A DNA stretch of 32,056 nt from NCBI GenBank assembly GCA_011389745.1, contig JAABTQ010000037.1, forward strand, positions 1-32,056, written 5' to 3'. The notes below the pieces were generated by a model, which saw nothing but the letters and a program-made list of their open reading frames with translations, made no database searches and was not told the DNA's origin. This document shows positions 1-26,278 of this stretch, piece by piece. Position 1 is the stretch's first letter. Every line of letters starts with the position of its first letter. The stretch is from Desulfobacteraceae bacterium (lineage in GTDB: Bacteria > Desulfobacterota > Desulfobacteria > Desulfobacterales > SKZT01). Position numbers and translations under genes: made by a program.

Positions 1-2130
1 AAAAGAGGATTTGAGACTCATAATTCCACCACTGATCCGGTCAAAACGTTCCCAGTCCATGTGCAGCAAACCCTTTGACCATGTGATATCCTCGTCGGTC
101 AGTCCGGCCCAGACAGCCTTCATGGGCGTACTTTGAAAATGCTCCGGAGTCACAGCTTTTAATTTGCGGGCATGTCCTGCCAATCCGTCACCCAGATCCA
201 GCACGTGCATAACGATAGGAATTTCCGTTTCCATGGGTTTTGCTCTTCGCATTCCAGGTCCATCAGTATCCACAAGGGAAAACATTTCTTGAGTTCCTTT
301 CTCATGAACAAAACGGACAAGGTCGTGAAAACTGCGGCAACCGTCCGGGGAAAACTCCGGCGAGGAAGGGTCCGTCAAACTCAACGAACTGACCAGTGAT
401 AAAAGCGGAGCCAACTTTTTCTGAAACGGAGCATGCGATTTTATTTTTTGCCGGTCATGCCAGGAAACCAGTTGTTCCACAATCCCGTCATAAACAGCAC
501 CCTGATAAGCGTCAACAGTAACAATTTGTCCCTGCTCCAGGATTCCGTCCATATCACCAAGTCCCACAACAACCGGAAGACTGAATTCCCTGGCCACGGA
601 GGCAAAATGGCTGGCTTTGCTCCCTTTTTCGGCAATGACGGCAGAGACCTTATTTAAAAGACCTACGAGATAAGGAGGAATTCCGCGAGTCAGCAAAACC
701 GCATTCTGAGGCACTTGTTCCATATCTTTTTCATCAAATATCCGATAAACCTTTCCTGCCGCAATACCTGAGCTGGCCGGTGTACCTTTTTTCAACGGGG
801 ATGAACCATGGTTTTCAGGAAATATCGCAGGAGTTTTTAAGCCAATATTGTCCGATTTTTCCACAGATTTAGGAACAGGTCGTGATTGCAGAACAAAAAG
901 ATTGCCGGCCTGATCCTGAGCCCACTCAATATCCTGAGGCACTTTAGCCAGGGTTTCCAGTTCTATTCCCCATTTTGCAAGGGTAACTGCGGATTGGTCA
1001 TCCAGACACATACTTTGCCCCTCTTTTTGAGGGCTCTTTTGTGCAACCGGTTTGTTTTTTCCGGCAGCCGGCTGTTTGTCAAGGAATCGAGGCGGATCTT
1101 GCCGGGAAATAAGAAAAATATCCGGAATGGTGCTGCCGTCAACAAGACTGCTGCCGGGACCAGGCACGGTACAAAGAACAAGGCACTCCCCCCCGCACTT
1201 GTCCAGCGGATCCAGGGTATAGATAATCCCGCTGGTGCGGGCATCGATCATGGGAAGAAAAAGCACCGCCATGGGAGTTTCTGCATCGCTAATGCCGTTG
1301 TGCAGCCTGTAGGTCAAAGCTCTGACTGAATATTTGCCGGCTAGTACGGTTTTGTAAGCTGTGAAAAGATCCTCTCTGGAAACATTCATGATTGTATCAT
1401 ACTGGCCGGCAAATGAAACCTCGCCATCCTCACCTACGGCACTGCTGCGCACAGCCCAGGAAGGACAATCGGGATCCACATTAATTTTTTCTAGCATGGA
1501 GACTATGCTTTTTTCCAACCCGGTCGGAAGTCTTCCCTCAAGGATTGCACTTCTAATATTGGATGCTGCCTTTTGAAGGCGTTCCGGCCGTTGAAGGTTG
1601 AGTAGCCTGAGGTGTTTGTCTATGAACTCTTCAAGATTGTTTTCTTCCAGATAAATGTGAAAAGCATTAATGGTCATGACGAACCCGGACGGCACCGGGA
1701 TTTTGGTTTGTTTGATGATACGCGCCAGGCTGCGGGCTTTGAATCCGACCAGATCAGGATATTGCCCGGCTTGTTCCAGGGAGAGTGAATAAGGAGGGGT
1801 TGCTTTTCCGGTAGAAACAGGAAGCAAATCCAGCAATTGCCGATGGATACGATCATACGTCGGAATCAGATCCGGGTAGGCATCGGGCCGCATCTGTTCC
1901 AGGCAATTGACCAGACGCCTGGCTGAACCGGATAAGCTTTCTGCAAGAAGGACAATCCGGGACCAATCCACAATAATCGGACCATGAACGATTTCCTCCA
2001 GACGGGTGATCAGCCTGAGGCATTTCCTGTCTTCACGAAGCAATTCCTGAAACAAATTGAACTGCCTGCGTGCAAGCTCATCCGGGATAAAAAACCGCTC
2101 AGCCCACTTTTTGATTTTTTTGAGGGGCAT
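1..2130 (-). CDS. PEP synthase/PPDK-like phosphotransferase, partial (3' end outside window)
   Basis: The frame is open from an ATG at 2130 to the left edge, giving 710 codons without a stop, so the C-terminus is missing. Residues about 1-125 are unassigned. Residues about 126-430 look like the ATP-grasp nucleotide-binding domain of pyruvate phosphate dikinases (a 'GFKARSLARI' segment near 128, then 'VRSSAVGEDGEVSFAGQ' with Arg228). Residues about 475-545 are a phosphohistidine swivelling domain ('KGSKASHFASVARE', candidate catalytic His508). What follows does not look like the PEP/pyruvate TIM barrel of PpsA or PpdK; it holds a Cys/His segment near 598-610 ('CRSFHDLVRFVHE'). The family moves phosphate from ATP through His to pyruvate or another acceptor; the acceptor here is not known. 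The start lies 9 bases after the receiver gene stop, so it is the last visible gene of the sensor operon. Confidence 0.82.
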   Translation of the reverse strand, partial: MPLKKIKKWAERFFIPDELARRQFNLFQELLREDRKCLRLITRLEEIVHGPIIVDWSRIVLLAESLSGSARRLVNCLEQMRPDAYPDLIPTYDRIHRQLLDLLPVSTGKATPPYSLSLEQAGQYPDLVGFKARSLARIIKQTKIPVPSGFVMTINAFHIYLEENNLEEFIDKHLRLLNLQRPERLQKAASNIRSAILEGRLPTGLEKSIVSMLEKINVDPDCPSWAVRSSAVGEDGEVSFAGQYDTIMNVSREDLFTAYKTVLAGKYSVRALTYRLHNGISDAETPMAVLFLPMIDARTSGIIYTLDPLDKCGGECLVLCTVPGPGSSLVDGSTIPDIFLISRQDPPRFLDKQPAAGKNKPVAQKSPQKEGQSMCLDDQSAVTLAKWGIELETLAKVPQDIEWAQDQAGNLFVLQSRPVPKSVEKSDNIGLKTPAIFPENHGSSPLKKGTPASSGIAAGKVYRIFDEKDMEQVPQNAVLLTRGIPPYLVGLLNKVSAVIAEKGSKASHFASVAREFSLPVVVGLGDMDGILEQGQIVTVDAYQGAVYDGIVEQLVSWHDRQKIKSHAPFQKKLAPLLSLVSSLSLTDPSSPEFSPDGCRSFHDLVRFVHEKGTQEMFSLVDTDGPGMRRAKPMETEIPIVMHVLDLGDGLAGHARKLKAVTPEHFQSTPMKAVWAGLTDEDITWSKGLLHMDWERFDRISGGIMSLKSSF

Positions 2131-2139
2131 AAGTTCTTC

Positions 2140-2499
2140 CTATTTGGCAAGAATTTGCGTGGTTTTTTCCTCCAGCTCATCGATGTCCAGGGGTTTGACA
2201 CAATATTCATCCGCTCCGAGCACCAAAGATTCCCTGGCCGTTTCCAGGGTCGGATAACCGGTAAGCATCATCACCCGGATGTTCGGATTGATTTTTTTCA
2301 GTTCTTCAAGCACTTCCACCCCGCTCATTTTTTTCAGCTTGATATCCAGGATAGCCATCTGAACCGGTTCTTTACGGACATGCTCCAATGCCGGCTCCTC
2401 ATCGCAGAAAACATGGACCCTGTGCCCCTTACGTGTCAGAATTCGCTTGATCATTATCCCAACATCCGCAACATCGTCTAAAACCAGTATGTCAGCCAT
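2140..2499 (-). CDS. Stand-alone response regulator receiver (REC) protein
   Basis: This 119-residue protein is a single CheY-like receiver domain with no output domain. The conserved residues are visible: acidic pair Asp8/Asp9, phospho-acceptor Asp52 in 'AILDIKL', Thr80 in 'MLTGYPT' and Lys102 in 'VKPLD'. It sits 33 bases downstream of the histidine kinase and 9 bases upstream of the PEP-synthase-like gene, so it is very probably the partner of that kinase. Lacking a DNA-binding domain, it must act by protein contact or as a phosphorelay intermediate; the adjacent phosphotransferase is a candidate target, which is inference from position only. Confidence 0.93.
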   Translation of the reverse strand: MADILVLDDVADVGIMIKRILTRKGHRVHVFCDEEPALEHVRKEPVQMAILDIKLKKMSGVEVLEELKKINPNIRVMMLTGYPTLETARESLVLGADEYCVKPLDIDELEEKTTQILAK

Positions 2500-2532
2500 A
2501 GTCTCCTCCTTTGCACGCTTACAATTGATCGA

Positions 2533-4623
2533 TCACCTGTTTTTTCCAAATTCAATACATTCATCCGGCGGCAAAGTGTCTCCTTCAAGGGGCAATTCCA
2601 CAAAAAAAATAGCCCCGGGGCCCGTCTCACCCTCGCACAAAGGGAATATATCCCTGTATTCCACCGGTACAGGGCTCAATGCACTGATACGACCACCATG
2701 GTCCTTGATGATTCCGAAGATGACCGAAAGGCCTAGTCCAGTGCCTTTATCCACGGGTTTTGTAGTGAAAAAGGGTTCAAAAATTCTTCCGAGATTTTCT
2801 TCCTCGATACCGCTTCCCGTGTCCGCTACAAATACCACCAGTCGCCTTCGGTGTGCACAAAGTTTTGATCTGATAAAGATACATCCATCCTTGCCGATAG
2901 CGTCTGCGGCATTGTTGAAAAGATTCATCCAGACCTGTTTTAATCGTTCCTTGTCTCCGGAAACCGGTGGAATCTGATCGTCCAGCTTTCGAAGAAGGGT
3001 AATCCGGTTCTGGCGGAATATAGGCTCCACCAAATCGATCACTTCCTGAATAGAACCATTGATGTCCATCCGGATCTTTTGTTTATCCGAACTTCTGGAA
3101 AAACTCAGCAGATCGGACACTATTTTGCGGCAGACCTGGGCCTGTTTTTCAATAATAGCGACATCCTGTTTTAAAGGATCTTCAGCTGGAACTTCTTTGA
3201 CCAGAAGCTGAGCATATCCCAGAATAATGCTCAAGGGGGTGTTGATTTCATGAGCCACTCCACCTGCCAGCCTTCCCAAATCCTCCATTTTCTGGGAATG
3301 AATCATCTTTTCCTGGTATTGTTTCACCACAGTAATATCCCTGGCAGTAGACAACAGCCCGATGACATTGTTGTGTTCGACAACCGGAAGTTTAACCACA
3401 TGGTACCATTTTTTTCCTTTGCTGCCTTTGGTCATGATCTCCTTGGAAAAAGACTCACCGGTCAGCAGAATCTGTTTATCTTCATGAAAATTCAAATCGG
3501 CCTGCTCTTCATCAAATAATTCGCTGTCCGTGCATCCGATGATTTCTTCCTCTTCCCGACCTGAATATCTGCAAAAAGCTCGGTTGACTGCCAGATAGAC
3601 CAGGTTTTTGTCCTGCAGAGTGACCAGATCCGGCGTAGCATCCAGAATTGTTTTCAGCAGTTGCTTCTGCCTTGCCAGGTTTTGTTCGGAAAGACGGAGT
3701 TCTTCGATATGATTTTTAAGGGTCAAGGCCATAAACTCGAAGGATTCGGCCAGGCTTTGGATCTCATCGCCGGCATTGTGCCGGTATACCGGGCAGAAAC
3801 GGCAGTTTTTCACTTTTTCAGGAAACCCTTCCTTGCCGCATTCCGGACAGAAAGTTCCGGCAATATACCAACACCTGCGTATCCGATTTTCATAAGCCGG
3901 GCAACGTGGTTCCTGACAGTTCATGATTTCCCAGCAATTCCTGTCCAAGGGAGGACTGACTTGAATATCCAGCTTGCCCCTGACAACTTCTTCGGCCGAA
4001 TGGCGCAGTGCATTAATCCGCCTGGTTACCGTTCGGGCAAAAAAAGTGCTCCCGATAAGGGCCAAAAACGTAGCTCCCGCGGTCATGACCATGTTGACCC
4101 ACATCAACCGGTTAATGGAAGTTTTGATAGCGGTGTGTGATAATGCGACACGAACTGTTCCCAAGCGCGTGCTTCCCACCATAACCGGTGAGGCAAAATC
4201 GTAGATCCGCTCCGTACCTGTATCCAGAAGCTGAACGGAAATCACCTGGTCATAATTTACCTGATTTGCCATACGAAGGGCAACAGGAAATCCGTTCCTG
4301 AAGGTATGTGCCAAGACCTGGCCATGAGTATCCATAATAAACGCATAAACGATGTTTTCTTCATCATCACTTTGCGACATATCCGTCACAAGATTGGTCA
4401 AACGCAGAAAATTCATGGACAAAATCGATTCCACAGATCGGGCCGAAAGATTCACGGCCAGTGCCTGACCTCGTTTGAGAGTTTCCTGTAAAACCGCCCG
4501 GGAGCTGACCTGATGATTCATAACACCAATAACCAGACCAAAGCAGACAATTATGAACGCAAGCCCCATATTAATCTTGCTTTGGAAACTGCGCCGGGTG
4601 ATGAATCGCATGAAAAAATGCAT
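2533..4623 (-). CDS. Membrane PAS sensor histidine kinase with Cys-rich insert
   Basis: This is a 696-residue hybrid-free kinase. Two membrane segments (about 17-35 and 174-196) flank a roughly 135-residue extracytoplasmic sensor region. A HAMP-like segment follows, interrupted or followed by a cysteine-rich stretch with eight Cys (230, 236, 241, 251, 259, 262, 274, 277), including two 'CW' pairs, resembling the 'two-CW' modules seen in Desulfobacterota sensors. A PAS domain covers about 318-435. The dimerisation/phosphoacceptor motif 'GGVAHEINTPL' carries His458. ATP-binding N, G1, F and G2 boxes follow ('NNAADAI', 'DTGSGI', 'FEPFFTT', 'GTGLGLS'). It lies 27 bases after the PhnD-like lipoprotein gene and before a receiver gene, which suggests the lipoprotein hands its ligand signal to this kinase. 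The cysteines may bind metal or sense redox state; that is inferred. Confidence 0.93.
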   Translation of the reverse strand: MHFFMRFITRRSFQSKINMGLAFIIVCFGLVIGVMNHQVSSRAVLQETLKRGQALAVNLSARSVESILSMNFLRLTNLVTDMSQSDDEENIVYAFIMDTHGQVLAHTFRNGFPVALRMANQVNYDQVISVQLLDTGTERIYDFASPVMVGSTRLGTVRVALSHTAIKTSINRLMWVNMVMTAGATFLALIGSTFFARTVTRRINALRHSAEEVVRGKLDIQVSPPLDRNCWEIMNCQEPRCPAYENRIRRCWYIAGTFCPECGKEGFPEKVKNCRFCPVYRHNAGDEIQSLAESFEFMALTLKNHIEELRLSEQNLARQKQLLKTILDATPDLVTLQDKNLVYLAVNRAFCRYSGREEEEIIGCTDSELFDEEQADLNFHEDKQILLTGESFSKEIMTKGSKGKKWYHVVKLPVVEHNNVIGLLSTARDITVVKQYQEKMIHSQKMEDLGRLAGGVAHEINTPLSIILGYAQLLVKEVPAEDPLKQDVAIIEKQAQVCRKIVSDLLSFSRSSDKQKIRMDINGSIQEVIDLVEPIFRQNRITLLRKLDDQIPPVSGDKERLKQVWMNLFNNAADAIGKDGCIFIRSKLCAHRRRLVVFVADTGSGIEEENLGRIFEPFFTTKPVDKGTGLGLSVIFGIIKDHGGRISALSPVPVEYRDIFPLCEGETGPGAIFFVELPLEGDTLPPDECIEFGKNR

Positions 4624-4650
4624 TGTTATGTCACCATGTAGAGTTATTCC

Positions 4651-5574
4651 CTATTTTAACCCGGCTCTTACCATCAGATCCCGCACTGGGTCGAAATCGT
4701 CAGGGCTTGCGGGAATGATCCCTTTCATCGCCGCTTTCTCCAGAATTAAACGATGATCCGGATTGTTATAGTCAAGGTTTAACATGGCCCGCCTGATGTC
4801 TTCCACTACTTCTTTTGCCAGACCGGCTCTGGCAGCATAGCCCCAGCCCGGATAACGCGGGGTCCGGGCCAGTATCCTTATTTGGGCCAGGTCAATTTTA
4901 TCCTTTAGCAATTCAAGAGCACCTTCCCGCACTGTTCCCACATCGTAACGACCCGCATAAACACCGAGTATAACACTTTCCTGTTTGCCCCCCGGACCGG
5001 GAGCAAAAACAATTTCCGCAAAATCTCCGGGAAAAATGCCGTGTTCTATAAAAGTCCCCAGACCGAACAAATACCCTCCGGCCGAAAACTGGTCAACGGC
5101 TATCCATCGCTTTCCACGGCAGTCTTCCAGCTTCTGAATGTTCGGATTATCGCTTCGGGTGATAATCAACCCGCCAAAAGCCGCTTCACCCGTCAACTCG
5201 ATGATCTTGGCGAAAACCCGGGCACCATAACGCTCCGCCGTCAAAGCATAAACAAAAGGATTGGCATAGGAGATATCAATTTTGCCCTGGGACAACATCA
5301 GCATGTGCTCATGAAAGGTTTCAGGAAAAATCTGTTGGATATTCAATCCCGTGGCATCTGAAAGATATTGCACCATGCGGTGATGACGTTCAAAGGAAAC
5401 CGTATGGGAAAACTGTGGCAAATAAGCGTAGGTAATCACCGGCTGGCGTATCCCCGGTGAAATTTCCTCCCGCTGGGTCATATCGACTTTCTGCGGAGAA
5501 AGGTCATTGTCGCATCCGGCTGTTAAAATCAGTACCATCGAAAAAAATAAAAATAACAACTGCCGAACCCACAT
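4651..5574 (-). CDS. PhnD-family periplasmic-binding lipoprotein
   Basis: This 307-residue protein begins with a hydrophobic signal peptide ending in a lipobox ('LTAGC', Cys21), so it should be a membrane-anchored lipoprotein. The body matches the phosphate/phosphite/phosphonate-binding (PhnD, type 2 periplasmic binding) fold: 'YLPQFSHTVSFERHHRMVQYL' style start, 'DISYANPFVYAL', and 'YDVGTVREGALELL'. A strong Shine-Dalgarno (AGGAGG) lies 6 bases before the ATG. No ABC permease or ATPase gene is adjacent; instead a histidine kinase follows by 27 bases. This favours a role as an accessory sensor for the kinase rather than as a transporter component. The ligand cannot be deduced from the sequence. 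Confidence 0.88.
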   Translation of the reverse strand: MWVRQLLFLFFSMVLILTAGCDNDLSPQKVDMTQREEISPGIRQPVITYAYLPQFSHTVSFERHHRMVQYLSDATGLNIQQIFPETFHEHMLMLSQGKIDISYANPFVYALTAERYGARVFAKIIELTGEAAFGGLIITRSDNPNIQKLEDCRGKRWIAVDQFSAGGYLFGLGTFIEHGIFPGDFAEIVFAPGPGGKQESVILGVYAGRYDVGTVREGALELLKDKIDLAQIRILARTPRYPGWGYAARAGLAKEVVEDIRRAMLNLDYNNPDHRLILEKAAMKGIIPASPDDFDPVRDLMVRAGLK

Positions 5575-5923
5575 TTTAGCCTCCTGATTGATTGTTTGTC
5601 ATCCTAAGTATCATTAACCAAAAGAAATGATAAACCTTTTGCTCTGATCAGAAAACCTTTTTCTCACATGAACACGGAATTACCTGCTCAATAAAGATTA
5701 AAATGATTGACATAAACGCCCTTAACTTTTAAACCTTCACAGTAGTTTGGTTCAGAGCAAATCCCCCCCGGCCCCCCTTTTTCAAAGAAGGGAGCAGTTA
5801 CTTATCGGTTTGGGCTCGGCACAGCCGAGTGGGAGGCTTAAAACTTAAAACTGCGTTCCTTAAATATTTGAGGCATTTTGCAGGCACCTTCAGAAGTTTA
5901 AGATCAGGAGTATAATATCCACA
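5575..5923. other. Intergenic region between divergent genes
   Basis: This roughly 350-base gap separates the divergent sensor operon (minus) and the CBS membrane protein gene (plus), so it should hold promoters for both. A TTGACA at 5707-5712 is a possible plus-strand -35 box, but the matching -10 is poor. A C-rich stretch at about 5761-5780 followed by a G-rich one resembles dispersed C/G-tract repeats of this group. No gene was found in it. Confidence 0.5.
5815..5829. repeat. Perfect hairpin CTCGGC-ACA-GCCGAG
   Basis: A 6-bp perfect inverted repeat with a 3-base loop lies about 95 bases before the downstream start codon, directly after a C-tract/G-tract sequence (5761-5793). There is no T-run, so it is not a typical terminator. 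It is more likely part of a dispersed intergenic repeat. Confidence 0.45.
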
Positions 5924-7246
5924 ATGAACAACTCCGCTTTTTTCATAGAAATTTTTGTCATTTTCATGCTGGTGGTTCTCAACGGGCTATTTGCCATGTC
6001 GGAAATCGCCCTGTTGTCATCCCGGAAATTTCGTCTTCGGCAGATGGCCGACAAAGGAAAACGAGGCGCTCAATATGCTCTGCAGCTTTGCAAGAATCCA
6101 ACCCGGTTTTTATCCACGATTCAAATCGGAATCTCGCTTATGGGAATCCTGAGTGGTGTTTACGGAGGCGCGATTGTTGCCTCATATCTGGAAAATATAT
6201 TGGAAAAAAGCCATTACCTGGCACCCTATGCCAGGACTCTGAGCCTTTCAACGGTTGTTCTGATGATCACATTTCTTTTTCTGGTGATAGGAGAAATCAT
6301 TCCAAAGCGTTTGGCCATGCTGCACCCGGAACGTATTGCTGCCATTTTCTCAGTTCCCATGTATTATTTATCACGTATAGCTGCTCCGGCAGTATATATC
6401 ATCAGCCTGTCATCCAACGGAATCCTTAAACTTTTCGGCATCGGACAGCATCATGAAGAGCGGCCATTATCCGAGGATGAAATCAAGCAACTTTTTCGGC
6501 AGGGCGCCCGGACCGGTGTGTTTCACCCATCCGAGATCAAGCTGGTGGAACGGGTCCTCAAACTCGATGACCATACCTTGGATAATTTGATGACCCCGCT
6601 TAAAGATGTCGTCTGGTTTGAGGAAAATGAACCTTTCCGGCACTGCATGGAAAAGGTCAGAGATTCGGGGCACAGTTGTTTTCCCGTGGCCCGGTCAAAT
6701 CTTGATCAGATTCTGGGAGTGGTGTGGGTAAAGGATCTTCTGGCAGCAAGTTGTGAGACTCAACCCACTTTGGAGCAAATTATCAAACCCGCGGTATATG
6801 CCCCAAAGCATTTGAACGCCCTGCAAATTCTGGATCGTTTTCAAAGTACCCGTTCCCACATGATTCTGATTGTCGACAGCGCCGAGATTGTTCAGGGCCT
6901 GGTAACCATCAACGATATTCTCCAGGCCATAATCGGCGAATTGCCTTATCCTTCATGGTTTGAAGAGCCGGGAATTATCTACAGAAATGACGGTTCCCTG
7001 CTACTGGATGGTCATTTATCGATTCGTAAATTGAAAAAGGCTCTTAAAATTTCAAGACTTCCCGGAGAAAAAAAAGTGGCTTTCAAAAACGTGGCCGAAT
7101 TTATCATGCGCCATCTGGACCATATTCCCATCAGCGGAGAAAGCTTTACCTGGGAGGGCTGCCGCTTTGAAGTGGTTGACATGGACGGGCCTTATGTCGA
7201 CAAGGTCCTGGTCCAGGCCCTGGCGGATAAAAAAAATAGCGGGTAA
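5924..7246 (+). CDS. HlyC/CorC-family membrane protein (DUF21, CBS pair, CorC_HlyC)
   Basis: The protein has 440 residues. Residues about 1-185 form the DUF21 (CNNM) membrane domain with several hydrophobic segments and the typical 'NGLFAMSEIALLSSRKFRLRQM' start and 'GEIIPKRLAM' motif. Two CBS repeats follow (about 215-335; 'DNLMTPLKDVVWF' and 'HMILIVDSAEIVQGLVTINDILQAIIG'). The last 80 residues match the CorC_HlyC transporter-associated domain. The family is implicated in divalent cation (Mg, Co) export or resistance; members are often misnamed hemolysins. It stands alone, with no operon partner on its strand. An AGGAG is present upstream, but its spacing to the ATG (about 14 bases) is long. 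Confidence 0.9.
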   Translation: MNNSAFFIEIFVIFMLVVLNGLFAMSEIALLSSRKFRLRQMADKGKRGAQYALQLCKNPTRFLSTIQIGISLMGILSGVYGGAIVASYLENILEKSHYLAPYARTLSLSTVVLMITFLFLVIGEIIPKRLAMLHPERIAAIFSVPMYYLSRIAAPAVYIISLSSNGILKLFGIGQHHEERPLSEDEIKQLFRQGARTGVFHPSEIKLVERVLKLDDHTLDNLMTPLKDVVWFEENEPFRHCMEKVRDSGHSCFPVARSNLDQILGVVWVKDLLAASCETQPTLEQIIKPAVYAPKHLNALQILDRFQSTRSHMILIVDSAEIVQGLVTINDILQAIIGELPYPSWFEEPGIIYRNDGSLLLDGHLSIRKLKKALKISRLPGEKKVAFKNVAEFIMRHLDHIPISGESFTWEGCRFEVVDMDGPYVDKVLVQALADKKNSG

Positions 7247-7291
7247 TAAATAATTTGGCAGTTATACCCGATCGTTTGGTGAAAATAATAA

Positions 7292-7310
7292 GTGATGTCA
7301 TTCCGGCGAA
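7292..7310. repeat. Truncated copy of a dispersed 'GTCATTCCGGCGAAGGCC' repeat half
   Basis: The motif resembles one arm of the palindromic intergenic repeat common in many proteobacteria, in which this half is normally followed by a complementary GGCCTTCGCCGG-type half. The second half is missing here, so it looks like a degraded copy. Confidence 0.35.
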
Positions 7311-7348
7311 GGCCATTAGCGTCAAGTTAAGCAATCGCATTTAAAAAT

Positions 7349-7451
7349 TGTAGGTGCGAATTCATTCGCACATCAAAAGCACGTCATCTATTTTTACCGA
7401 CATGTTTGCGGACAATCCCCCGGGTTTTGTGCGGATAAATCCGCACCTACA
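7349..7451. repeat. 103-bp element with terminal inverted repeats, each forming a hairpin
   Basis: The ends TGTAGGTGCG (7349-7358) and CGCACCTACA (7442-7451) are perfect 10-bp inverted repeats. Next to each end is a nearly perfect hairpin: GTGCGAAT-TC-ATTCGCAC at 7354-7371 and GTGCGGAT-AA-ATCCGCAC at 7429-7446. The arrangement fits a REP/BIME-like pair or a small non-autonomous element. It lies between the CBS protein gene and the convergent hicB. Confidence 0.65.
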
Positions 7452-7582
7452 GATCCACAGTTTTTTAAGACTTGTAACTTTATTACAATGGCATGCTGGG
7501 TACCGACATGACCTGGCAGGAGATATCACCGCAAAAAGGAACTCACCGAACTTATTCAGGCCTATTAAGAAAAGAGGGATGG

Positions 7583-7999
7583 TCATCTTCCTGGAGTGCG
7601 CAAATCGGAATTGATAACACTTTGTGCTGCTCGGATCAGAAATGAAGATCGGGACATACCTCGTTTTTTGGCGAAAGCATCGATTCGATGAAGCGTATTT
7701 TCAGGAACGGTAATATTAACCCTGACGGTTTTTGGATTGGCATCTTGAACCGTGATAACCAGAAATGCAACGCCATCAGCATAATCGGGATCAGCCATGA
7801 TTTTTTCAAGGCTGGAAGGTTCAGGTATTCTCTCACCGTCTTCAATCATACCTTCAATATGAAACTGAAGTGCCTCATGAGCCATATCCTTAGCTTCGTC
7901 AATTGTGTCACCGGCAGTGATGCACCCGGGAAAATCAGGAAAAGAAACACTGTAATCACTATTCGGATCTTTATGGGCTGCACCGATATAATTAGCCAT
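7583..7999 (-). CDS. hicB: HicB-family antitoxin
   Basis: This 138-residue protein has an N-terminal HicB-like domain (about 1-72; 'DYSVSFPDFPGCITAGDTIDEAKDMA') and a C-terminal ribbon-helix-helix segment (about 92-130; 'VRVNITVPENTLHRIDAFAKKRGMSRSSFLIRAA') expected to bind DNA and autoregulate the locus. The start is supported by an AGGAG 8 bases upstream, which overlaps the end of the toxin frame. The reading frame is intact although the adjacent toxin is not. Confidence 0.92.
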   Translation of the reverse strand: MANYIGAAHKDPNSDYSVSFPDFPGCITAGDTIDEAKDMAHEALQFHIEGMIEDGERIPEPSSLEKIMADPDYADGVAFLVITVQDANPKTVRVNITVPENTLHRIDAFAKKRGMSRSSFLIRAAQSVINSDLRTPGR

Positions 8000-8011
8000 A
8001 GTTTACATCTC

Positions 8012-8199
8012 CTATCTGAGTTTAATGCCGGATTGCCGTTCAATACTTTTCAAAGTCTTAATCGAAATATCTTTTTTGGGATGTGGAACAGTAACCCTGC
8101 CTTTCTTTTCGGGGTGGCAAATTGAACATGCGACCCCTTGGAGCCAACCTTGTACCATCCATCATCTTCAAGCTTTTTGATTATCGTCCGGCTATCCAT
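8012..8199 (-). pseudogene. hicA: hicA mRNA interferase toxin gene with a one-base frameshift
   Basis: From an ATG at 8199 the frame reads a good HicA N-terminus ('MDSRTIIKKLEDDGWYKVGS', then a 'KGSHVQF' segment with the family His). At about 8100-8107, in the run GAAAAGAAAGG, the frame leaves the family: it continues into an unrelated tail and stops at TGA 8050. Reading on one base out restores 'GRVTVPHPKKDISIKTLKSI' and ends at TAG 8012-8014, giving a normal HicA length of about 62 residues. The span of 188 bases is one base short of 63 codons. A single missing A or G in the purine run explains this. It could be a true inactivating mutation or a sequencing error. Confidence 0.85.
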
Positions 8200-8200
8200 A

Positions 8201-8216
8201 TGTGTATTTATACGCA
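8201..8216. promoter_or_regulatory. Candidate HicB operator upstream of hicA
   Basis: TGTGTATTTATACGCA is a near-perfect 16-bp palindrome (core GTATTTATAC) lying immediately upstream of the hicA start codon. HicB antitoxins with ribbon-helix-helix domains usually repress their own promoter at such palindromes. The assignment rests on position and symmetry only. Confidence 0.45.
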
Positions 8217-8262
8217 TTGTTTTCAAAAGGTCAATACAAACGTGTCGACATCCCCTTGCCAT

Positions 8263-8901
8263 TACACCAGGCAGCCTATTTGGCGTATGTTGGATTTACA
8301 TGAGATCGCCGGATAAAATCGTTCAGAAAGAAGTCGAAGATTACCTGTTTTATCTCTAAACCAAACATCCGCAACGCTCCGTATCCGAAAGATTTCTGCC
8401 CTATTTCTATTGAATCGGTTTTTTCATATGCTGTCTTCCAAATCAACTTTGAATATCTGTGCAGAGTTATTCCGGAGATTCTTCGGTCGCCGAGGTTTAC
8501 CCTGATGTTGCATTGGAATTCACTTAGCCCAATTGGATATGCTGTTATAAAAGAGCCAAACTCGCTTTCTGCAACTTTCAAAGGACTTCACCGATCGTGA
8601 ATTCCTCAATGGGCGGTCATTCAGCTACTCGACCTTTTAAAAAAGTACCGGATTGAAGCAAACATGCTTATTGTTTTGCACCATCGGGGTTTACATTAAC
8701 ACACAGGAGCTATGAAAAACCACATCAACCAATAACCCCTCAATTTTTTATTGTTCTTTAAACGCATATCTGGTATTTAATTATTCTTTTTTCTAAAATT
8801 GCGGTTAAATCTTAGGCTATAGCAATTAGCTTAAAATGTTTAACAGGTTATACTTTAGCCAAGATAACCTGTTTAAAAAAGCCTATAGGATATTCTGAAA
8901 A
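8263..8901. other. Gene-poor region between hicA and the menaquinone operon
   Basis: No convincing gene is visible. A 101-codon minus-strand frame (8276-8581) has no recognisable motif and no good Shine-Dalgarno, so I do not annotate it. A short plus-strand stretch (about 8600-8700) encodes a protein-like segment ('WAVIQLLDLLKKYRIEANML') without a start, possibly a gene scrap. The last 250 bases are AT-rich and probably contain the promoter of the downstream operon. Confidence 0.5.
8842..8873. promoter_or_regulatory. 10-bp inverted repeat upstream of the menaquinone operon
   Basis: AACAGGTTAT and ATAACCTGTT form a perfect 10-bp dyad with a 12-base spacer, ending 28 bases before the UbiD-type start codon. 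It could be an operator for the operon or a hairpin in its leader. There is no T-run on the plus strand, so termination is unlikely. Confidence 0.4.
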
Positions 8902-10344
8902 ATGGTTTTTGCAAATCTCAGATCGTTTATCCATGAACTTGAAAAAATGGGAGAGCTGAAAAGAATCTCCGTAGAGGTTGATCCTTTTCTGGAAATTGCG
9001 GAAATTGCCGATCGCATGAGTAAAACCCATGGGCCGGCGTTGCTTTTCGAGAATGTGAAAGGCGCATCCTTTCCCGTTCTGATCAATGCTTTCGGCAGCT
9101 ATAAAAGGATGCAAAAGGCCCTGGGTTACAGCAGCTTTGATGATATTGCACTTCGGCTGGAATCCTTTTTAAAAATACAGCCCCCCAAAACTTTCATGGA
9201 CAAGCTCAGGATGCTGGGAACCTTGAAGACCATGTCGGATTTTATTCCCAGGAAGGTTAAACGTGCGCCATGCCAGGAGCAGGTTTTTGAATCCGGCCGG
9301 ATGCTGGACATGCTTCCGATTCTGACTACGTGGCCCAAGGATGGCGGTCCTTTTATCACCCTTCCCATTGTCATCACAAAAGATCCGGATACCGCAGTCC
9401 AGAATGTGGGAATGTACCGGATGCAAAAATATGATCCTACGTCAACGGGAATGCACTGGCAGTACAATAAGGACGGTGCCCGGCATTTTGACAGATATAA
9501 AAACCGGAATCAAAGAATGGAAGTGGCGGTAGCCCTGGGCGGGGCGCCGGTTGCAACCTATGCGGCAACAGCCCCTCTTCCGCCGGAGGTGGATGAGTTC
9601 ATTTTCGCAGGGTTTATCAATTCCGGACCCATCGAAATCGTCAGGGCAAAAACTGTAGATCTGATGGTTCCGGCAGAATCGGATTTCGTTCTTGAGGGAT
9701 ATGTAGACCCGGATGAGCTTCGAACAGAGGGGCCCTTTGGGGATCATACGGGATTTTATTCGGCAGCAGACACCTACCCGGTATTTCACATTACCTGCAT
9801 CACGTGCAGAAACGATGCAATCTATCCGGCAACCATCGTTGGAAAGCCGCCCATGGAAGACTGCTACATGGCCAAGGCAACCGAACGAATATTTTTACCC
9901 ATGATCAAAATGATCATCCCGGAGGTTGTCGATATGGAACTTCCCCTGGAAGGGGTCTTTCATAACTGTGCACTGATTACCATCAAAAAGCAATTCCCCG
10001 GCCAGGCCAAAAAGGTAATCCATGCACTCTGGGGACTTGGTCAGATGTCCTCGACAAAATATATTGCCGTGTTTGATGACGACCTTGATCTTCGTGATTC
10101 CAGCACCGTGGTATGGAAAATGCTCAATAATGTGGATCCCAGGCGGGATTTGATCTTTTCGGAAGGCCCCCTTGACGCGCTGGATCACTCGGCCCCCTAC
10201 CCTAATTTCGGCGGCAAGATGGGAATCGACGCCACGCGAAAAACCCGGGAGGAAGGAATGGGCCGCGAGTGGCCCGAAGAAATCGAGATGAGTCCTGACA
10301 TAAAAGCGCTGGTAGACAGTCGGTGGAGAACTTATGGATTTTAA
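8902..10344 (+). CDS. mqnL: Menaquinone biosynthesis decarboxylase, UbiD family (MqnL type)
   Basis: This 480-residue protein has the length and motifs of UbiD decarboxylases, which use prenylated FMN: 'EIADRMSKTHGPALLFENVKG' near the start, and 'TEGPFGDHTGFY' at about 274-285 containing the conserved acidic residue region. In the futalosine route the UbiD member decarboxylates prenylated 1,4-dihydroxy-6-naphthoate. It is the first gene of the cluster and overlaps the prenyltransferase gene by 11 bases. The UbiX-type gene two positions downstream would supply its cofactor. Clustering with mqnE, mqnA, mqnC and mqnD argues for the menaquinone rather than ubiquinone role. Confidence 0.93.
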   Translation: MVFANLRSFIHELEKMGELKRISVEVDPFLEIAEIADRMSKTHGPALLFENVKGASFPVLINAFGSYKRMQKALGYSSFDDIALRLESFLKIQPPKTFMDKLRMLGTLKTMSDFIPRKVKRAPCQEQVFESGRMLDMLPILTTWPKDGGPFITLPIVITKDPDTAVQNVGMYRMQKYDPTSTGMHWQYNKDGARHFDRYKNRNQRMEVAVALGGAPVATYAATAPLPPEVDEFIFAGFINSGPIEIVRAKTVDLMVPAESDFVLEGYVDPDELRTEGPFGDHTGFYSAADTYPVFHITCITCRNDAIYPATIVGKPPMEDCYMAKATERIFLPMIKMIIPEVVDMELPLEGVFHNCALITIKKQFPGQAKKVIHALWGLGQMSSTKYIAVFDDDLDLRDSSTVVWKMLNNVDPRRDLIFSEGPLDALDHSAPYPNFGGKMGIDATRKTREEGMGREWPEEIEMSPDIKALVDSRWRTYGF

Positions 10345-11176
10345 AAAGTTTTCCGAACTCATTATGATTGAACAAACCCTGTTTGCCCTTCCTTTTGCAT
10401 TCATCGGTGTCTTGTTTGCCGGCGGCAATACATTAAGCACATGGTTTTGGGTAGCTATCGCTCTTATTGCGGCCCGCACGGCAGGTATGTCCTTTAACCG
10501 GGTAATCGACGCATCAATCGATGCTAAAAATCCCCGCACAAAAAACCGGTTGGTTCCCAGGGGAGAAGTGGATGCCGCCATGGTTTGGCTCATCGCCATT
10601 ATATCCTCTCTGGTGCTTATTTTTTCGGCACTGATGTTAAACCAGCTTTGCTTTTATCTGTCTTTTGCCGCGGTTGCCCTTCTCTTTACCTATTCCTATT
10701 TTAAAAGGTTTTCCGCATCCTCCCATTTCTATCTGGGTGCTGTGGAAGCTGCCGCCCCTATTGGCGGTTACCTTGCAGTAACAGGTGAATTTACCATTGT
10801 TCCCTTTATCCTGGGAATGGTAATACTCTTGTGGATCGCCGGGCTCGACATCATATATGCCATACAGGACAGGGAATTCGACATCAGGGAAAAACTGCAC
10901 TCCATTCCGGCCGGAATGGGTGAAAAAAAAGCTATTACCATATCGCTGCTATGTTATATTCTGGCCTTGATCGCCCTGACCACAGCAGGTATCCTTACCC
11001 ACAAAACCTTGCCATATTGGCTTGCCGTGATCTGTATCGGAGGCATTTTTACCTATCAGCAAAAGATTGTCCGGCAAGGAATCGTCTCCGGTTCGATCAA
11101 AAAATTCTTTCAGGTCAATCTTTATGTCTCTCCCATCCTGTTTATCGGAACTTTCATGGATCTTCTTTTAAAGTAA
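10334..11176 (+). CDS. mqnP: UbiA-family polyprenyltransferase for menaquinone (MqnP type)
   Basis: This 280-residue integral membrane protein has about eight hydrophobic segments. The two Asp-rich motifs of UbiA enzymes are present: 'NRVIDASIDAKNPRTKNR' (about 55-72) and 'IYAIQDREFDIREKLHSIP' (about 175-193). These bind the prenyl diphosphate through Mg. In this context it should attach the polyprenyl chain to 1,4-dihydroxy-6-naphthoate. Its ATG overlaps the end of the UbiD gene (ATGGATTTTAA), indicating translational coupling. Confidence 0.94.
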   Translation: MDFKKFSELIMIEQTLFALPFAFIGVLFAGGNTLSTWFWVAIALIAARTAGMSFNRVIDASIDAKNPRTKNRLVPRGEVDAAMVWLIAIISSLVLIFSALMLNQLCFYLSFAAVALLFTYSYFKRFSASSHFYLGAVEAAAPIGGYLAVTGEFTIVPFILGMVILLWIAGLDIIYAIQDREFDIREKLHSIPAGMGEKKAITISLLCYILALIALTTAGILTHKTLPYWLAVICIGGIFTYQQKIVRQGIVSGSIKKFFQVNLYVSPILFIGTFMDLLLK

Positions 11177-11209
11177 CAACAGTGCTATGAGATACTGCAT
11201 AGGATAAAA

Positions 11210-11812
11210 ATGATCATAACGGCAATATCAGGGGCAAGCGGGTCAATTTTAGGAATAAGGCTGATCGAGGAACTTCTTCTTTCCGGTGAAAAGATAACGG
11301 GTATCGTTTCAGACTCTTCATGGCAAATCATCGGGCATGAGCTTTCATGGAAAAAAGAGGGGCCGGAACCTTTGAAAACATTTTTGAAAAAACGGGGAAT
11401 GGTTTCTTCCCTGGAAAATTTTCAAGAGTATGCCAACAATGATTTTTTTTCGCCGGCAGCAAGCGGCTCATCCAGTTTTGATGCAGTGGTGGTGATTCCA
11501 TGCTCCATGAAGACCCTTTCCGCCATATCCCATGGATATGCCGACAACCTGATCACCCGGACCTGTGATGTGGCACTGAAAGAAGGACGGAGATGTATCG
11601 TGGTACCCAGGGAGACCCCTCTCAGTGTGATTCACCTGGAAAACATGCTCAAAGCGGCAAAATCAGGGGTTCAGATTGTGCCGCCTTCCCCCGGATTCTA
11701 CACCCTGCCGGAATCAGTGGAAGATATCGTGAACTTTATCGTCGGAAAAGTGCTTCACTTGTTAGGCAAAAAACATCATCTTTTTAAGGCATGGGGAGAG
11801 ATAAAAGTATAA
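11210..11812 (+). CDS. ubiX: UbiX-family flavin prenyltransferase
   Basis: This 200-residue flavoprotein starts with the FMN-binding 'ISGASGSILGIRLIEEL' motif and carries the family signatures 'VVIPCSMKTLSAISHGYADNL' (about 95-115) and 'VPRETPLSVIHLENM' (about 131-145). UbiX prenylates FMN with dimethylallyl phosphate to make the cofactor needed by UbiD decarboxylases. It follows the prenyltransferase gene by 33 bases and precedes mqnE by 3 bases. It may also be called mqnM in this pathway. Confidence 0.95.
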   Translation: MIITAISGASGSILGIRLIEELLLSGEKITGIVSDSSWQIIGHELSWKKEGPEPLKTFLKKRGMVSSLENFQEYANNDFFSPAASGSSSFDAVVVIPCSMKTLSAISHGYADNLITRTCDVALKEGRRCIVVPRETPLSVIHLENMLKAAKSGVQIVPPSPGFYTLPESVEDIVNFIVGKVLHLLGKKHHLFKAWGEIKV

Positions 11813-11815
11813 GCA

Positions 11816-12943
11816 ATGCAATTGCCTGATGAAATAAAGAACAAGACGCTGAAAAATATCGCCCGAAAAGTGATGGAAAACATTCCTGTTAACCGGGACG
11901 ATGCTTTCGCAATGCTCACCACAAACGATATCATGGAACTGGGAGCTATTGCCGACCACATCCGGACCCAATTCCACGGCAACACTACCTATTACAGCAT
12001 CAACATGAACTTAAACTACACCAACATCTGCACCCTTCGCTGCCCGCTATGCGCTTTTTCATGTGATATAGACGATGAGCGGGCCTTTGTGCTCTCTATG
12101 GACGACATTGAAAAACGGGTTTTACAAGCAGTGGACGATGGCATTGACGAAGTGCATATCGTAGGCGGACTTCACCCGGATCTTACCCTGGTTTACTTTG
12201 AAAAAATGCTCCGGAAAATAAAAAAAATAAAGCCGGAACTGCTGATTGTGGGATTCACGGCTGTCGAATACGACCATTTTGCTAAAATCAACCGGCTCAG
12301 CATCGAGGAAGTATTCAGGAGATTGATAGATGCAGGCGTGGGTGCTCTTCCGGGCGGAGGTGCGGAAATTTTTTCTCCCCGGGTACGGAATGTGATAGCA
12401 CCCGACAAAATCACCGGGAAAAGATGGCTCGGTATCATGGGAACTGCCCACAGGATGAACCTCAAAACCAATGCCACCCTTTTGTATAACCACATTGAAA
12501 ACACAGAGGATGTTGTTGACCATCTTTTTCAAATCCGGGAGCTTCAGGATGAAACCGGTGGTTTTAAAACCTTTGTTCCATTGCAGTTTCACGGTGAAAA
12601 TACCCGTATTCGCAGCAAAAGAAGGTTTTCAACCGGGTATGACGATATGCGGATCTATGCCGCCGGCCGCATTGTGCTGAGAAATATTCCCCACCTGAAA
12701 GCTCTCTGGATGTATCTTGGAGAAAAGATGGCCCAGATACTCCAGCGGTTTGGGGTGGACGATATCGGAGGAACCTATACAAATGAAAAGGTGGTGCATG
12801 CGGCAGGTGCAAAAACTTCCGACTATGGTACAGAACCCTTTTTAAGACGGATGATTGAAGAATCCGGGATGGTGCCCATGCGGACCACGGCGAATTATCA
12901 AAACGGTGACTGCCTGGCCATGGGTGTATCAGAGGGGCAATGA
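11816..12943 (+). CDS. mqnE: Aminofutalosine synthase (radical SAM)
   Basis: This 375-residue protein has the radical SAM CxxxCxxC motif at Cys72, Cys76 and Cys79 ('CTLRCPLC'). The 'FTAVEYDHFAKINRLSIEEV' and 'GALPGGGAEIFSPRVR' segments, followed by 'TNATLLYNHIE', distinguish MqnE from its paralogue MqnC. MqnE joins 3-[(1-carboxyvinyl)oxy]benzoate with S-adenosylmethionine to give 6-amino-6-deoxyfutalosine. The gene overlaps mqnA by four bases (ATGA). The protein continues about 20 residues past the 'TANYQ' region with no added domain. Confidence 0.95.
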   Translation: MQLPDEIKNKTLKNIARKVMENIPVNRDDAFAMLTTNDIMELGAIADHIRTQFHGNTTYYSINMNLNYTNICTLRCPLCAFSCDIDDERAFVLSMDDIEKRVLQAVDDGIDEVHIVGGLHPDLTLVYFEKMLRKIKKIKPELLIVGFTAVEYDHFAKINRLSIEEVFRRLIDAGVGALPGGGAEIFSPRVRNVIAPDKITGKRWLGIMGTAHRMNLKTNATLLYNHIENTEDVVDHLFQIRELQDETGGFKTFVPLQFHGENTRIRSKRRFSTGYDDMRIYAAGRIVLRNIPHLKALWMYLGEKMAQILQRFGVDDIGGTYTNEKVVHAAGAKTSDYGTEPFLRRMIEESGMVPMRTTANYQNGDCLAMGVSEGQ

Positions 12944-13767
12944 GACTGGGATATATCGACTACCTTAACTGTTACCCGTTTTATCATCTCCTGTTTGAAA
13001 ACAACCACCTGCAAGGGATACAGATAATATCAGGATATCCCAGCGCACTAAACAAAATGCTGGATGAAGCATCCCTTGACCTGAGCCCTATATCTGCGGC
13101 CACATACCCGGGCATTGCAGATCGGATTTTACTGCTTCCACAATTTTGCCTGAGTTCCGTCGGATATGTGGGGTCGGTAATTCTTGTCAGCCGCTGTCCC
13201 ATTGAAGCACTTCATGAGCGGACTGTCGGTCTGACCCGCGCATCATACACATCGGTGATACTGGTAAAAATCCTGCTTGAAAAATACTACGGTGTTCAAC
13301 CTGCGTACAGCTCAACAGCACCTTTTGCCACACCGGATCAAACCGATGCCGTGCTTTTGATCGGAAATGAAGCCATGATTTTTCGATCCTCACCGAACAT
13401 GTATGTTTATGATCTCGGAGAAATCTGGCTGCAAAAAACAGGATTTCCCGTCGTGTTTGCAGTTTTTGGGGTCAGAAAAGCAATCCTGAAAGAATTTGCC
13501 CCAAAAATCCGAAACGTAATCCAATGTTATCATGACTCGATCGAGTGTCTGAAGCAGGAAAAAGAGAAGGTAATATCCTGCGCTGCTGCCAAATACCCGG
13601 ATATTGACTACGACATCAACCGGTATTTCAGTCTGCTGAGATTTGAATTTACCGATGACCTGAAAAGCGCCCTGATGTTCTATTTGTCCGTGGCAGGAGA
13701 ATTGGGCTTTTTAAAACCTGTCTCAGAACTTAATTTTTTAACCATGGACAATCTGCATAACCTATGA
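12940..13767 (+). CDS. mqnA: Chorismate dehydratase
   Basis: This 275-residue protein begins with 'MRLGYIDYLNCYPFYHLLF', the typical MqnA start, and has a periplasmic-binding-like fold without a signal peptide. 'LDLSPISAATYPG' and 'DAVLLIGNEAMIF' are also characteristic. It converts chorismate to 3-[(1-carboxyvinyl)oxy]benzoate, the first committed step of the futalosine route. ATGA overlaps link it to mqnE upstream and mqnC downstream, so the three are translationally coupled. Confidence 0.94.
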   Translation: MRLGYIDYLNCYPFYHLLFENNHLQGIQIISGYPSALNKMLDEASLDLSPISAATYPGIADRILLLPQFCLSSVGYVGSVILVSRCPIEALHERTVGLTRASYTSVILVKILLEKYYGVQPAYSSTAPFATPDQTDAVLLIGNEAMIFRSSPNMYVYDLGEIWLQKTGFPVVFAVFGVRKAILKEFAPKIRNVIQCYHDSIECLKQEKEKVISCAAAKYPDIDYDINRYFSLLRFEFTDDLKSALMFYLSVAGELGFLKPVSELNFLTMDNLHNL

Positions 13768-14843
13768 AAGTAAACTTTACGGATAACCGCCTGAAAGAAA
13801 AAATATATCAGGGACAGCGAATCTCCTCTGAGGAAGCATCGGCTCTTTATGCCTGGGACCTCCACGATCTTGCTCTGGCAGCGGATATGAGAAGAAAGGT
13901 TGTTTTTCCCAAGGAAGAAGTAGGTTTTATTCTTGACCGGATTATCAATTTCACTAATGTATGCGAAGCCGGGTGTGCCTTTTGTGCCTTTCATGCAAAA
14001 GCCGACCGTGTTGAACCCTTTGAGCTGGGTCTGGATGAAATTTTCGACCGGATTGAATCGCTGATCAAAGCTGGAGGAACCCAGGTGATGCTTCAGGGTG
14101 GGTTGCATCCGCACTATACCCTGGATACTTATGTTGAGCTCGTCTGTAATGTAAAAAAACGATTTCCGGAAATTTATCTGCACTCCTTTTCCCCTGCGGA
14201 GCTGATTCATGCATCCCGAAAAAGCTCGGTGACCCTTGACGAAGTTGTATCCTGCCTTAAAAACGCGGGCCTCGATTCAGTTCCGGGGGCATCCGATCTT
14301 CTGGTGGATAGAATTCGCAAAATAGCTAGTCCAAATAAACTCACAGTCAATGAATGGGTATGTGCAATGGAAGCCCTTCACCGGGGGGGCTTAAATTCTT
14401 CGGCTACCATGACTTACGGTATGGGGGAAACCGACCGTGAGGAAATTGAACATTTGGCCGTGATTCGCGATCTTCAGGATCGAACCGGTATGATTCGGGC
14501 GTTTATTCCCTGGTCCTTTTCCCCTTCCCGGACCCGGATGAGCCATATTCCGCCCGCTACGGGAATCCGTTACCTTAAGATCGTGGCTATCGCAAGAATC
14601 TTTCTTGATAACATCGTTCATATCCAGGCCGGATGGCTGACCGAAGGATTGAAGCCGGCTCAAATCGCTCTTTCCATGGGAGCAACGGATATGGGAGGAG
14701 TGCTGACTGAAGAACTCGTGGTCAAAGCCACAGGAATTGAAACCCACACCACCAGGGATGAACTGATCGATATTATTAAAAATGCAGGAAAAATCCCAGT
14801 ACAAAGGGATTCAGAATACCAGGTGATTCAAAGGTTTCAGTGA
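13764..14843 (+). CDS. mqnC: Cyclic dehypoxanthinyl futalosine synthase (radical SAM)
   Basis: This 359-residue radical SAM protein has CxxxCxxC at Cys67, Cys71 and Cys74 ('CEAGCAFC'). 'VMLQGGLHPHYTLDTYVELV', 'IYLHSFSPAEL', 'SSATMTYGMGET' and 'MIRAFIPWSFSPSRT' place it in the MqnC subfamily rather than MqnE. It cyclises dehypoxanthine futalosine, the substrate of MqnD's predecessor step. The start codon overlaps the mqnA stop (ATGA), and mqnD follows after 57 bases. Confidence 0.95.
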   Translation: MKVNFTDNRLKEKIYQGQRISSEEASALYAWDLHDLALAADMRRKVVFPKEEVGFILDRIINFTNVCEAGCAFCAFHAKADRVEPFELGLDEIFDRIESLIKAGGTQVMLQGGLHPHYTLDTYVELVCNVKKRFPEIYLHSFSPAELIHASRKSSVTLDEVVSCLKNAGLDSVPGASDLLVDRIRKIASPNKLTVNEWVCAMEALHRGGLNSSATMTYGMGETDREEIEHLAVIRDLQDRTGMIRAFIPWSFSPSRTRMSHIPPATGIRYLKIVAIARIFLDNIVHIQAGWLTEGLKPAQIALSMGATDMGGVLTEELVVKATGIETHTTRDELIDIIKNAGKIPVQRDSEYQVIQRFQ

Positions 14844-14900
14844 AAATTTTTGACATTCGTAAAATAGACGACTTCCAATAAGATACATAAGAGATCCTCA

Positions 14901-24261: not shown

Positions 24262-24394
24262 TGGCAGCCAACTCGTACCCGTTATTAAATCAATTTCAGA
24301 TTGAATGATTTTATCAGCCCGTTTTCTCCTGGTTTCATTGTAGTAAATCCATCATTAGACATTTTTATTTTTAAGTTATCAAGGAGGTTTTAGA

Positions 24395-25009
24395 GTGGCA
24401 CTAATTCCAATGGTTATCGAACAATCCAGCAGGGGCGAACGGGCCTATGATATATATTCGAGACTTTTAAAAGACAGGATTATATTTTTAGGAACTCCCA
24501 TAAACGATGAGATCGCTAATCTTTTAATCGCCCAGTTTCTTTTCCTGGAATCCGATGACCCTGAAAAAGACATTAACTTTTATATCAACTCACCGGGAGG
24601 GGTTGTAACAGCAGGACTGGCCGTTTACGACACCATGAAATATATCAAGCCGGATGTAACAACGGTATGCATCGGGCAGGCGGCAAGTATGGGAGCCGTA
24701 CTACTGGCTGCAGGGTCTAAGGGTAAACGATACTCACTTCCCCATGCCCGAATCCTGATACATCAGCCAATGGGCGGATTTCAGGGCCAGGCATCGGATA
24801 TTGCCATCCAGGCCAAAGAGATTTTGCGTATGAAAGAAACCCTAAATGAAATTTTAGTTGAACATACAGGCAAAGACATAGAACGAATCCAGTTGGATAC
24901 GGACCGGGATTTTTTCATGTCGGGGGATGAGGCCAAGGAATATGGAATTGTAGACCATGTGATTACCACACGGGACGATCTCGATAACCTGGACAAGACG
25001 GAGGCCTAA
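24395..25009 (+). CDS. clpP: ATP-dependent Clp protease proteolytic subunit
   Basis: This 204-residue serine protease has the catalytic triad Ser98 ('[10 protein letters not shown]'), His123 ('LIHQPMGG') and Asp172 ('DRDFFMS'). The start codon is GTG, supported by AAGGAGG 8 bases upstream. There is no long propeptide. It forms the proteolytic chamber for ClpX, whose gene begins one base after its stop codon. Confidence 0.97.
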
Positions 25010-25010
25010 A

Positions 25011-26258: not shown

Positions 26259-26278
26259 CCCAATAACGTTAACTAAAT

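Follow-up and report, generated by a model that had tools for sequence, protein, structure and literature searches.

A conserved Desulfobacterota operon, counterpart of the Desulfovibrio nitrate cluster, and its possible role in oxyanion signalling

The DNA analysed here, which we call the window, is a stretch of 32,056 nucleotides from a Desulfobacteraceae bacterium (contig C31 in our numbering, from base 1), and the system in question is an operon on the minus strand at its beginning. A preliminary description had given four minus-strand genes with gaps of 27, 33 and 9 bases, and the open reading frames and Pfam matches bear out all of these frames and families. The operon starts with a PhnD/PtxB-type binding lipoprotein (SBP) of 307 residues at 4651..5574 (Pfam Phosphonate-bd, 4.9e-58), followed by a sensor histidine kinase of 696 residues at 2533..4623 (sCache_3_2, PAS, HisKA and HATPase) and a stand-alone receiver of 119 residues at 2140..2499, which, as had been claimed, has no output domain, Response_reg being its sole Pfam domain. 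The last gene, at 1..2130, is the 5' part of a gene for an enzyme with ATP-grasp and phosphohistidine domains of the phosphoenolpyruvate (PEP) type (PPDK_N and PEP-utilizers; 710 residues, no stop). It runs off the start of the contig: full-length relatives have about 820–860 residues, and the C-terminus (about 150 residues) is absent from the window together with a fifth gene. In the sister genome G001 (locus L048) this fifth gene encodes a dual-specificity phosphatase (DSP) and overlaps the PEP-type gene; the protein has the Pfam domains Tc-R-P and DSPc and a Cys-rich tail that matches CxxCxxCC just under the cut-off. Another contig of the window genome, C76, opens with the last 64 residues of a DSP (64% identical to that of L048), after which the genes, identified by eye, are those that follow the DSP in L048 (amidohydrolase, DUF134 protein, ParA-type NTPase). 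We therefore consider that the operon continues across the assembly gap between C31 and C76, for which we predict a length of some 1.3 kb. The four-gene unit was thus correct in its genes and placement and incomplete in its extent, as it lacked the phosphatase and broke off, where the contig stops, within its last gene.

With the DSP included, the predicted series SBP–kinase–receiver–PEP–DSP, all on one strand, has the gene order of the core of the Desulfovibrio nitrate cluster, and the window cluster, judged from its sequence, matches DVU0249-DVU0245 as the counterpart of a system that is already known genetically. The nitrate cluster comprises DVU0251-DVU0245 or Dde_0597-0605 (Korte et al. 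2014, PMC4001038), and by annotation it has, in the same order, a PtxB-like SBP, a PAS kinase, a receiver of 119 residues (from its 360-bp length), a PPDK_N/PEP-utilizers protein and a dual-specificity phosphatase. A TauE permease and a protein of about 195 residues stand upstream, as they do in the loci L172, L186 and L205; in the window genome, by contrast, TauE and a 201-residue protein are found on another contig (C4). The match to the nitrate cluster is one of gene order and annotation, with the Pseudodesulfovibrio locus L172 serving as the stand-in at the residue level.

The arrangement is conserved well beyond one genome. A scan of named bacterial genomes for relatives of the full-length PEP-type enzyme gave 80 loci, many of them cut by contig ends and nearly all from Desulfobacterota; beside the PEP-type gene, 73 of them encode a DSP, 47 a receiver of the window subfamily, 20 the corresponding kinase and 18 the lipoprotein. 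The sister genome G001 has the same order as the window (84% identity for the SBP, 78% for the kinase, 81% for the receiver and 65% for the PEP-type enzyme), and L172 of Pseudodesulfovibrio pelocollis is more distant (53%, 47%, 65% and 42%, respectively). The five genes lie on the same strand in L100, L115 and L172, and the full series TauE-HYP203-SBP-kinase-receiver-PEP-DSP is found in L172, L186 and L205. In a phylum sample of 297 Desulfobacterota genomes, the receiver subfamily (threshold E <= 1e-32) occurs in 33, nearly always in single copy and with 51–69% identity in distant members. The PEP family is present in 32 of these 33 genomes and in 73 of the 264 receiver-negative ones (Fisher p 2.5e-15), the DSP in 22 of 33 versus 4 of 264 (p 2.5e-21) and a PhsA-like enzyme in 29 of 33 versus 47 of 264 (p 1.1e-15), all three tests ignoring shared ancestry; the window genome itself was scored as DSP-negative because of the assembly gap. 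The sole receiver-positive genome without a PEP-family gene over the threshold has a kinase-receiver pair (L174, G210:C58, 5046-8201) and its PhsA-like enzyme elsewhere. Recurrence of the order in G001 and several other families, together with the co-occurrence, rules out chance adjacency. These results answer both ways in which the preliminary description could have failed, namely an order confined to this genome and a receiver and PEP-type gene that do not co-occur elsewhere. As a functional association, the relay it proposed, with an extracytoplasmic ligand at one end and a phosphohistidine enzyme at the other, is well supported; it had missed the DSP, the genetic work on the nitrate cluster, the transporter and the PhsA-like enzyme.

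The latter two belong to a block seen in the neighbourhood of the relatives, with a TauE/SafE permease, a 200-residue membrane protein and a PhsA-like molybdoenzyme, which adjoins either receiver-kinase-SBP (L203) or PEP-DSP (L120, L133). A single close homologue of TauE is encoded in the window genome (65% identical to the TauE of L172); it lies not next to the core but on C4, in the order TauE-HYP203-molybdoenzyme-FeS protein-GltD-like oxidoreductase, HYP203 being here the 201-residue counterpart of the ~195-residue protein. The molybdoenzyme gene on C4 is single-copy in this genome at that similarity level; PhsA is by far the best family for its product, and the nearest structure is 2vpw, named thiosulfate reductase. 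The enzyme is probably cytoplasmic because its N-terminal signal region is lacking (the profile match begins at position 41). Elsewhere in the same genome, locus L197 (C5:36000-52000) has at 5043-10579 a 1125-residue protein with a weak SBP match near its N-terminus, then a receiver protein of 354 residues and a TauE-like gene; the large protein is perhaps a second oxyanion sensor, of a fused type, beside a transporter.

The SBP has a lipobox (LTAGC, residues 17–21), and no ABC permease or ATPase gene adjoins its gene in the window, in keeping with the earlier view of a PhnD-type lipoprotein without ABC partners. An assignment to the SBPs of PhnD phosphonate ABC transporters (TIGR03431) was rejected, since the score is 83.6 bits against a cut-off of 261.1 and adjacent ABC transporter genes are lacking. 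By sequence match to the structure database, its nearest solved relatives are ArrX, HtxB, PtxB and AioX; the tetrathionate sensor TtrS is matched weakly (2e-7). AioX and ArrX are stand-alone PtxB-like binding proteins that serve a kinase and not an ABC importer. The likeness to the AioX-AioS and ArrX-ArrS systems ends at the regulator, which in those systems is a conventional DNA-binding one, and we know of no phosphohistidine enzyme or DSP in them. The ThsS/ThsR and TtrS/TtrR systems combine PhnD-like periplasmic sensing and a kinase beside a sulfur-oxyanion reductase: TtrS responds to tetrathionate and ThsS, which adjoins phsA, to thiosulfate (PMC5408782). Their PhnD-like domain lies inside the kinase and their regulator binds DNA, whereas the window operon encodes the SBP as a lipoprotein of its own and a receiver without output domain. 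From the neighbouring genes and this analogy, our best guess is that the SBP binds thiosulfate or a similar sulfur oxyanion. A phosphite, phosphonate or arsenic oxyanion is a rather improbable ligand in our judgement: the nearest solved relatives are indeed named as binders of arsenic oxyanions (ArrX, AioX) or phosphite (HtxB, PtxB), but the neighbours are a PhsA-like reductase and TauE, and cluster mutants of G20 were reported, in unpublished data that PMC4001038 quotes, to be mildly sick on thiosulfate.

The kinase is laid out as a transmembrane segment, a periplasmic sCache_3 domain, a second transmembrane segment with HAMP (a match just under the Pfam cut-off), a Cys-rich insert at residues ~230-285, PAS, HisKA with His458, and HATPase. 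The Cys-rich stretch between HAMP and PAS, CWEIMNC...CPEC...CRFCP (window 3769-3936, minus strand), is possibly a metal or Fe-S site that would provide a second, redox input. The kinase adjoins the receiver, upstream of it, in 35 of 83 receiver loci; in Desulfobulbales loci the kinase is of another type and the receiver is the same. By its domain content and residues the receiver is a single-domain (CheY-like) response regulator, with a receiver domain only and with the acidic pocket, phospho-Asp, Thr and Lys intact (D8/D9, D52, T80 and K102). It is strongly conserved around D52 and in the segments TGYPTLETARE and EYCVKP, a pattern that fits a fixed protein partner and does not indicate which. 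Conservation of the receiver across kinases of different type is also of importance for one possible explanation of the operon, in which the output is transcriptional: the bare receiver would be a phosphate sink or adaptor that tunes a nearby sigma-54 regulator, and the PEP-type enzyme would simply be the product of one of the regulon's structural genes. In Desulfobulbales, loci such as L139 do have sigma-54 regulators and a second kinase within the cluster, and on C4 of the window genome a kinase and a receiver-type regulator stand beside the TauE/molybdoenzyme block. Against this speak the constancy of the receiver across kinase types and the maps of the window operon and of L172, L186 and L205, which have no sigma-54 regulator gene, and we rate a transcriptional output as quite unlikely.

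What partner the receiver might have is suggested by the genes next to it. Among the 83 receiver genes, the gene directly downstream is the PEP-type gene in 21 and the molybdoenzyme in 15, and a DSP stands convergent in 16. In locus L173 (G115:C66, 2300-4915, minus strand) the receiver is fused in frame to a PhsA-like molybdopterin oxidoreductase in a protein of 871 residues, with a second receiver gene just upstream and an FeS subunit downstream. This fusion means that the PEP-type enzyme may not be the sole partner of the receiver. It could even be that the target of the receiver is the PhsA-like molybdoenzyme, or the maturation of that enzyme, with PEP-DSP as a separate branch regulated in parallel; in favour of this, many genomes have PEP-DSP and the receiver on different strands or far apart. 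This possibility, which we regard as unlikely, has to contend with the 21 receivers directly upstream of the PEP-type gene, with the common nitrate phenotype in DvH of losing the PEP-type gene or the receiver (see below), and with the genomes G165, G200, G220 and G267, which are receiver-positive and have the PEP family without a close molybdoenzyme relative (in G200 a more distant one adjoins the receiver).

The PEP-type enzyme had been labelled PPDK/PpsA-like, and part of this label is right. The ATP-grasp and phosphohistidine domains align with those of PEP synthase and rifampin phosphotransferase (RPH); K131, R228, E402, Q415, R417 and H508 are present, no substitution of the catalytic Lys, Arg, Glu, Gln, Arg or His occurs in an alignment of 63 PEP-type sequences, and the protein is, as predicted from its sequence, like PEP synthase in its ATP-grasp and phosphohistidine part. 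The PEP/pyruvate domain is what it lacks: no Pfam domain for the TIM-barrel is found in the full-length L048 homologue, and in the predicted structure of the C-terminal domain the order of elements is not that of an alternating barrel. PEP synthase (TIGR01418; 272.8 bits versus a cut-off of 739.75, the match ending at residue 556 of the truncated window copy) and RPH (NF041857; 155 bits versus 999) were rejected as identities. A model of the L172 orthologue (pLDDT 86, pTM 0.81) gave structural matches to RPH (Z 36.0, 395 residues, 3.5 Å) and PEP synthase (Z 32.8, 349 residues, 4.5 Å), all confined to residues 112-524. The N-terminal 110 residues are helical in the model and form an extra domain relative to both enzymes; the phosphohistidine domain follows directly after ATP-grasp, whereas it is C-terminal in RPH. 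The C-terminal 280 residues, with invariant D, R, H and E, have no clear structural counterpart; folded alone (pLDDT 80), they gave no Foldseek match below 0.001 in the PDB, and the best VIA match has a Z of 7.6 over 85 residues, a level that chance can produce; both programs may have missed a fold. With scores far under the curated cut-offs and matches limited to the ATP-grasp and His part, we therefore treat the protein not as a PEP synthase but as an ATP-dependent phosphohistidine enzyme with predicted phosphotransfer.

The DSP has the CX5R motif in all 99 sequences, and in locus L185 (G327:C14, 7013-10792) it is fused to the PEP-type enzyme in a single frame of 1259 residues. DSP domains usually act on phosphoproteins or phospholipids, which sits poorly with a further explanation, in which the PEP-type protein would transfer phosphoryl groups to a small molecule, the DSP would act on the product and the two-component genes would only be co-regulated with the enzyme. 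The closest folds, RPH and PEP synthase, are both small-molecule enzymes, and the invariant polar residues of the C-terminal domain look like an active site. The bare receiver, however, recurs beside the wider PEP-type family too (30–35% identical; adjacent in 6 of 34 and within 6 kb in 18 of 34), and we would not think a small-molecule role likely.

The published genetics of the nitrate cluster, which cover DvH and G20 only, give some idea of the function. In DvH, insertions in DVU0251 (TauE), DVU0249 (SBP), DVU0247 (receiver) and DVU0246 (PEP-type) have fitness values in nitrate of +11.44, +3.86, +9.14 and +2.18, and isolated mutants of DVU0246, DVU0247, DVU0250 and DVU0251 grow equally well with 100 mM nitrate (PMC4001038). 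For DVU0245 (DSP) the fitness in nitrate is -6.04, and the mutant is still sensitive (PMC4001038). The authors, who found the cluster poorly annotated, suggested a leaky thiosulfate transporter and proposed no signalling mechanism (PMC4001038); in a 2021 paper, loss of putative thiosulfate transporters is a route to nitrate resistance (PMC9723548). In DvH, mutants of the receiver or the enzyme thus resemble the transporter mutant and that of the phosphatase does not, as should be the case if the enzyme turns transport on and the phosphatase turns it off.

Taken together, we propose, at slightly less than even confidence, that the window operon forms the signalling part of a system conserved in Desulfobacterota, in which oxyanion sensing acts on a kinase-phosphatase pair that gates transport and reduction. 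Outside the cell the SBP would bind an oxyanion, for which thiosulfate or some other sulfur oxyanion is the likeliest candidate, and would engage the sCache domain of the kinase; the kinase would phosphorylate D52 of the receiver. The phosphorylated receiver would activate the PEP-type enzyme through direct binding; the enzyme would charge the swivelling H508 from ATP and hand the phosphoryl group on, by way of its C-terminal domain, to a target that would switch on anion import of the TauE type, the cytoplasmic PhsA-like reductase or both, and the DSP would take the phosphoryl group off again. Nitrate would do harm by leaking through a transporter that the pathway keeps open. Sequence supports the parts that this scheme calls for, an intact lipoprotein, kinase, receiver, ATP-grasp/His enzyme and CX5R phosphatase, which travel together. 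Several points weigh against it. The two halves, PEP-DSP and receiver-kinase-SBP, are often convergent or apart (in Desulfobacteraceae often convergent, with the DSP facing the receiver), and in the window genome the transporter and reductase genes lie on a different contig from the operon. The C4 molybdoenzyme scores 620.7 bits against PhsA (NF012032), under the cut-off of 694, and specificity for sulfur oxyanions is drawn from neighbours and analogy. The kinase DVU0248 is annotated as a pseudogene in DvH, though the receiver matters there, which leaves room for some other way of charging it. The G20 DSP mutant has a fitness of +2.08 in nitrate, in conflict with a simple brake (PMC4001038).

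The rest of the window can be described briefly. By eye, there is a HicB-like protein with a ribbon-helix-helix-like tail at 7583-7999 (minus strand); UbiD-, UbiA- and UbiX-like genes and then genes like those of the futalosine menaquinone pathway (MqnA/C/D/E-like) at 8902-15707; and trigger factor, clpP, clpX and lon in order, then tRNA-Val and tRNA-Asp, an ordinary arrangement, at 22921-28717. A promoter and terminator scan of 2000-6200 gave sites no more numerous than in shuffled sequences, and an Rfam scan of the window gave nothing besides four tRNAs.

The cluster itself was known from genetics. To our knowledge, the reading as a two-component switch whose output is a kinase-phosphatase pair, with a link to the transporter and the PhsA-like enzyme, is new, though later work on the nitrate cluster may have escaped us. 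The strongest form of this reading, which we offer tentatively and with more doubt than belief, is a class of two-component output that is, as far as we know, new: a bare receiver, once phosphorylated, would switch an ATP-grasp/phosphohistidine kinase opposed by a dedicated DSP, so as to control an anion transporter and a cytoplasmic molybdoenzyme of sulfate reducers post-translationally, and loss of the switch would give nitrate resistance. Nitrate is an agent against sulfide production in oil fields, and the cluster is among the main Desulfovibrio sites that mutate to nitrate resistance. With the comparative evidence, the cluster becomes a circuit open to testing, with a named sensor, receiver, kinase, phosphatase, transporter and reductase. 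If the reading is true, two-component signalling in these bacteria would end, in this case, in a phosphohistidine enzyme and a phosphatase and not in DNA binding.

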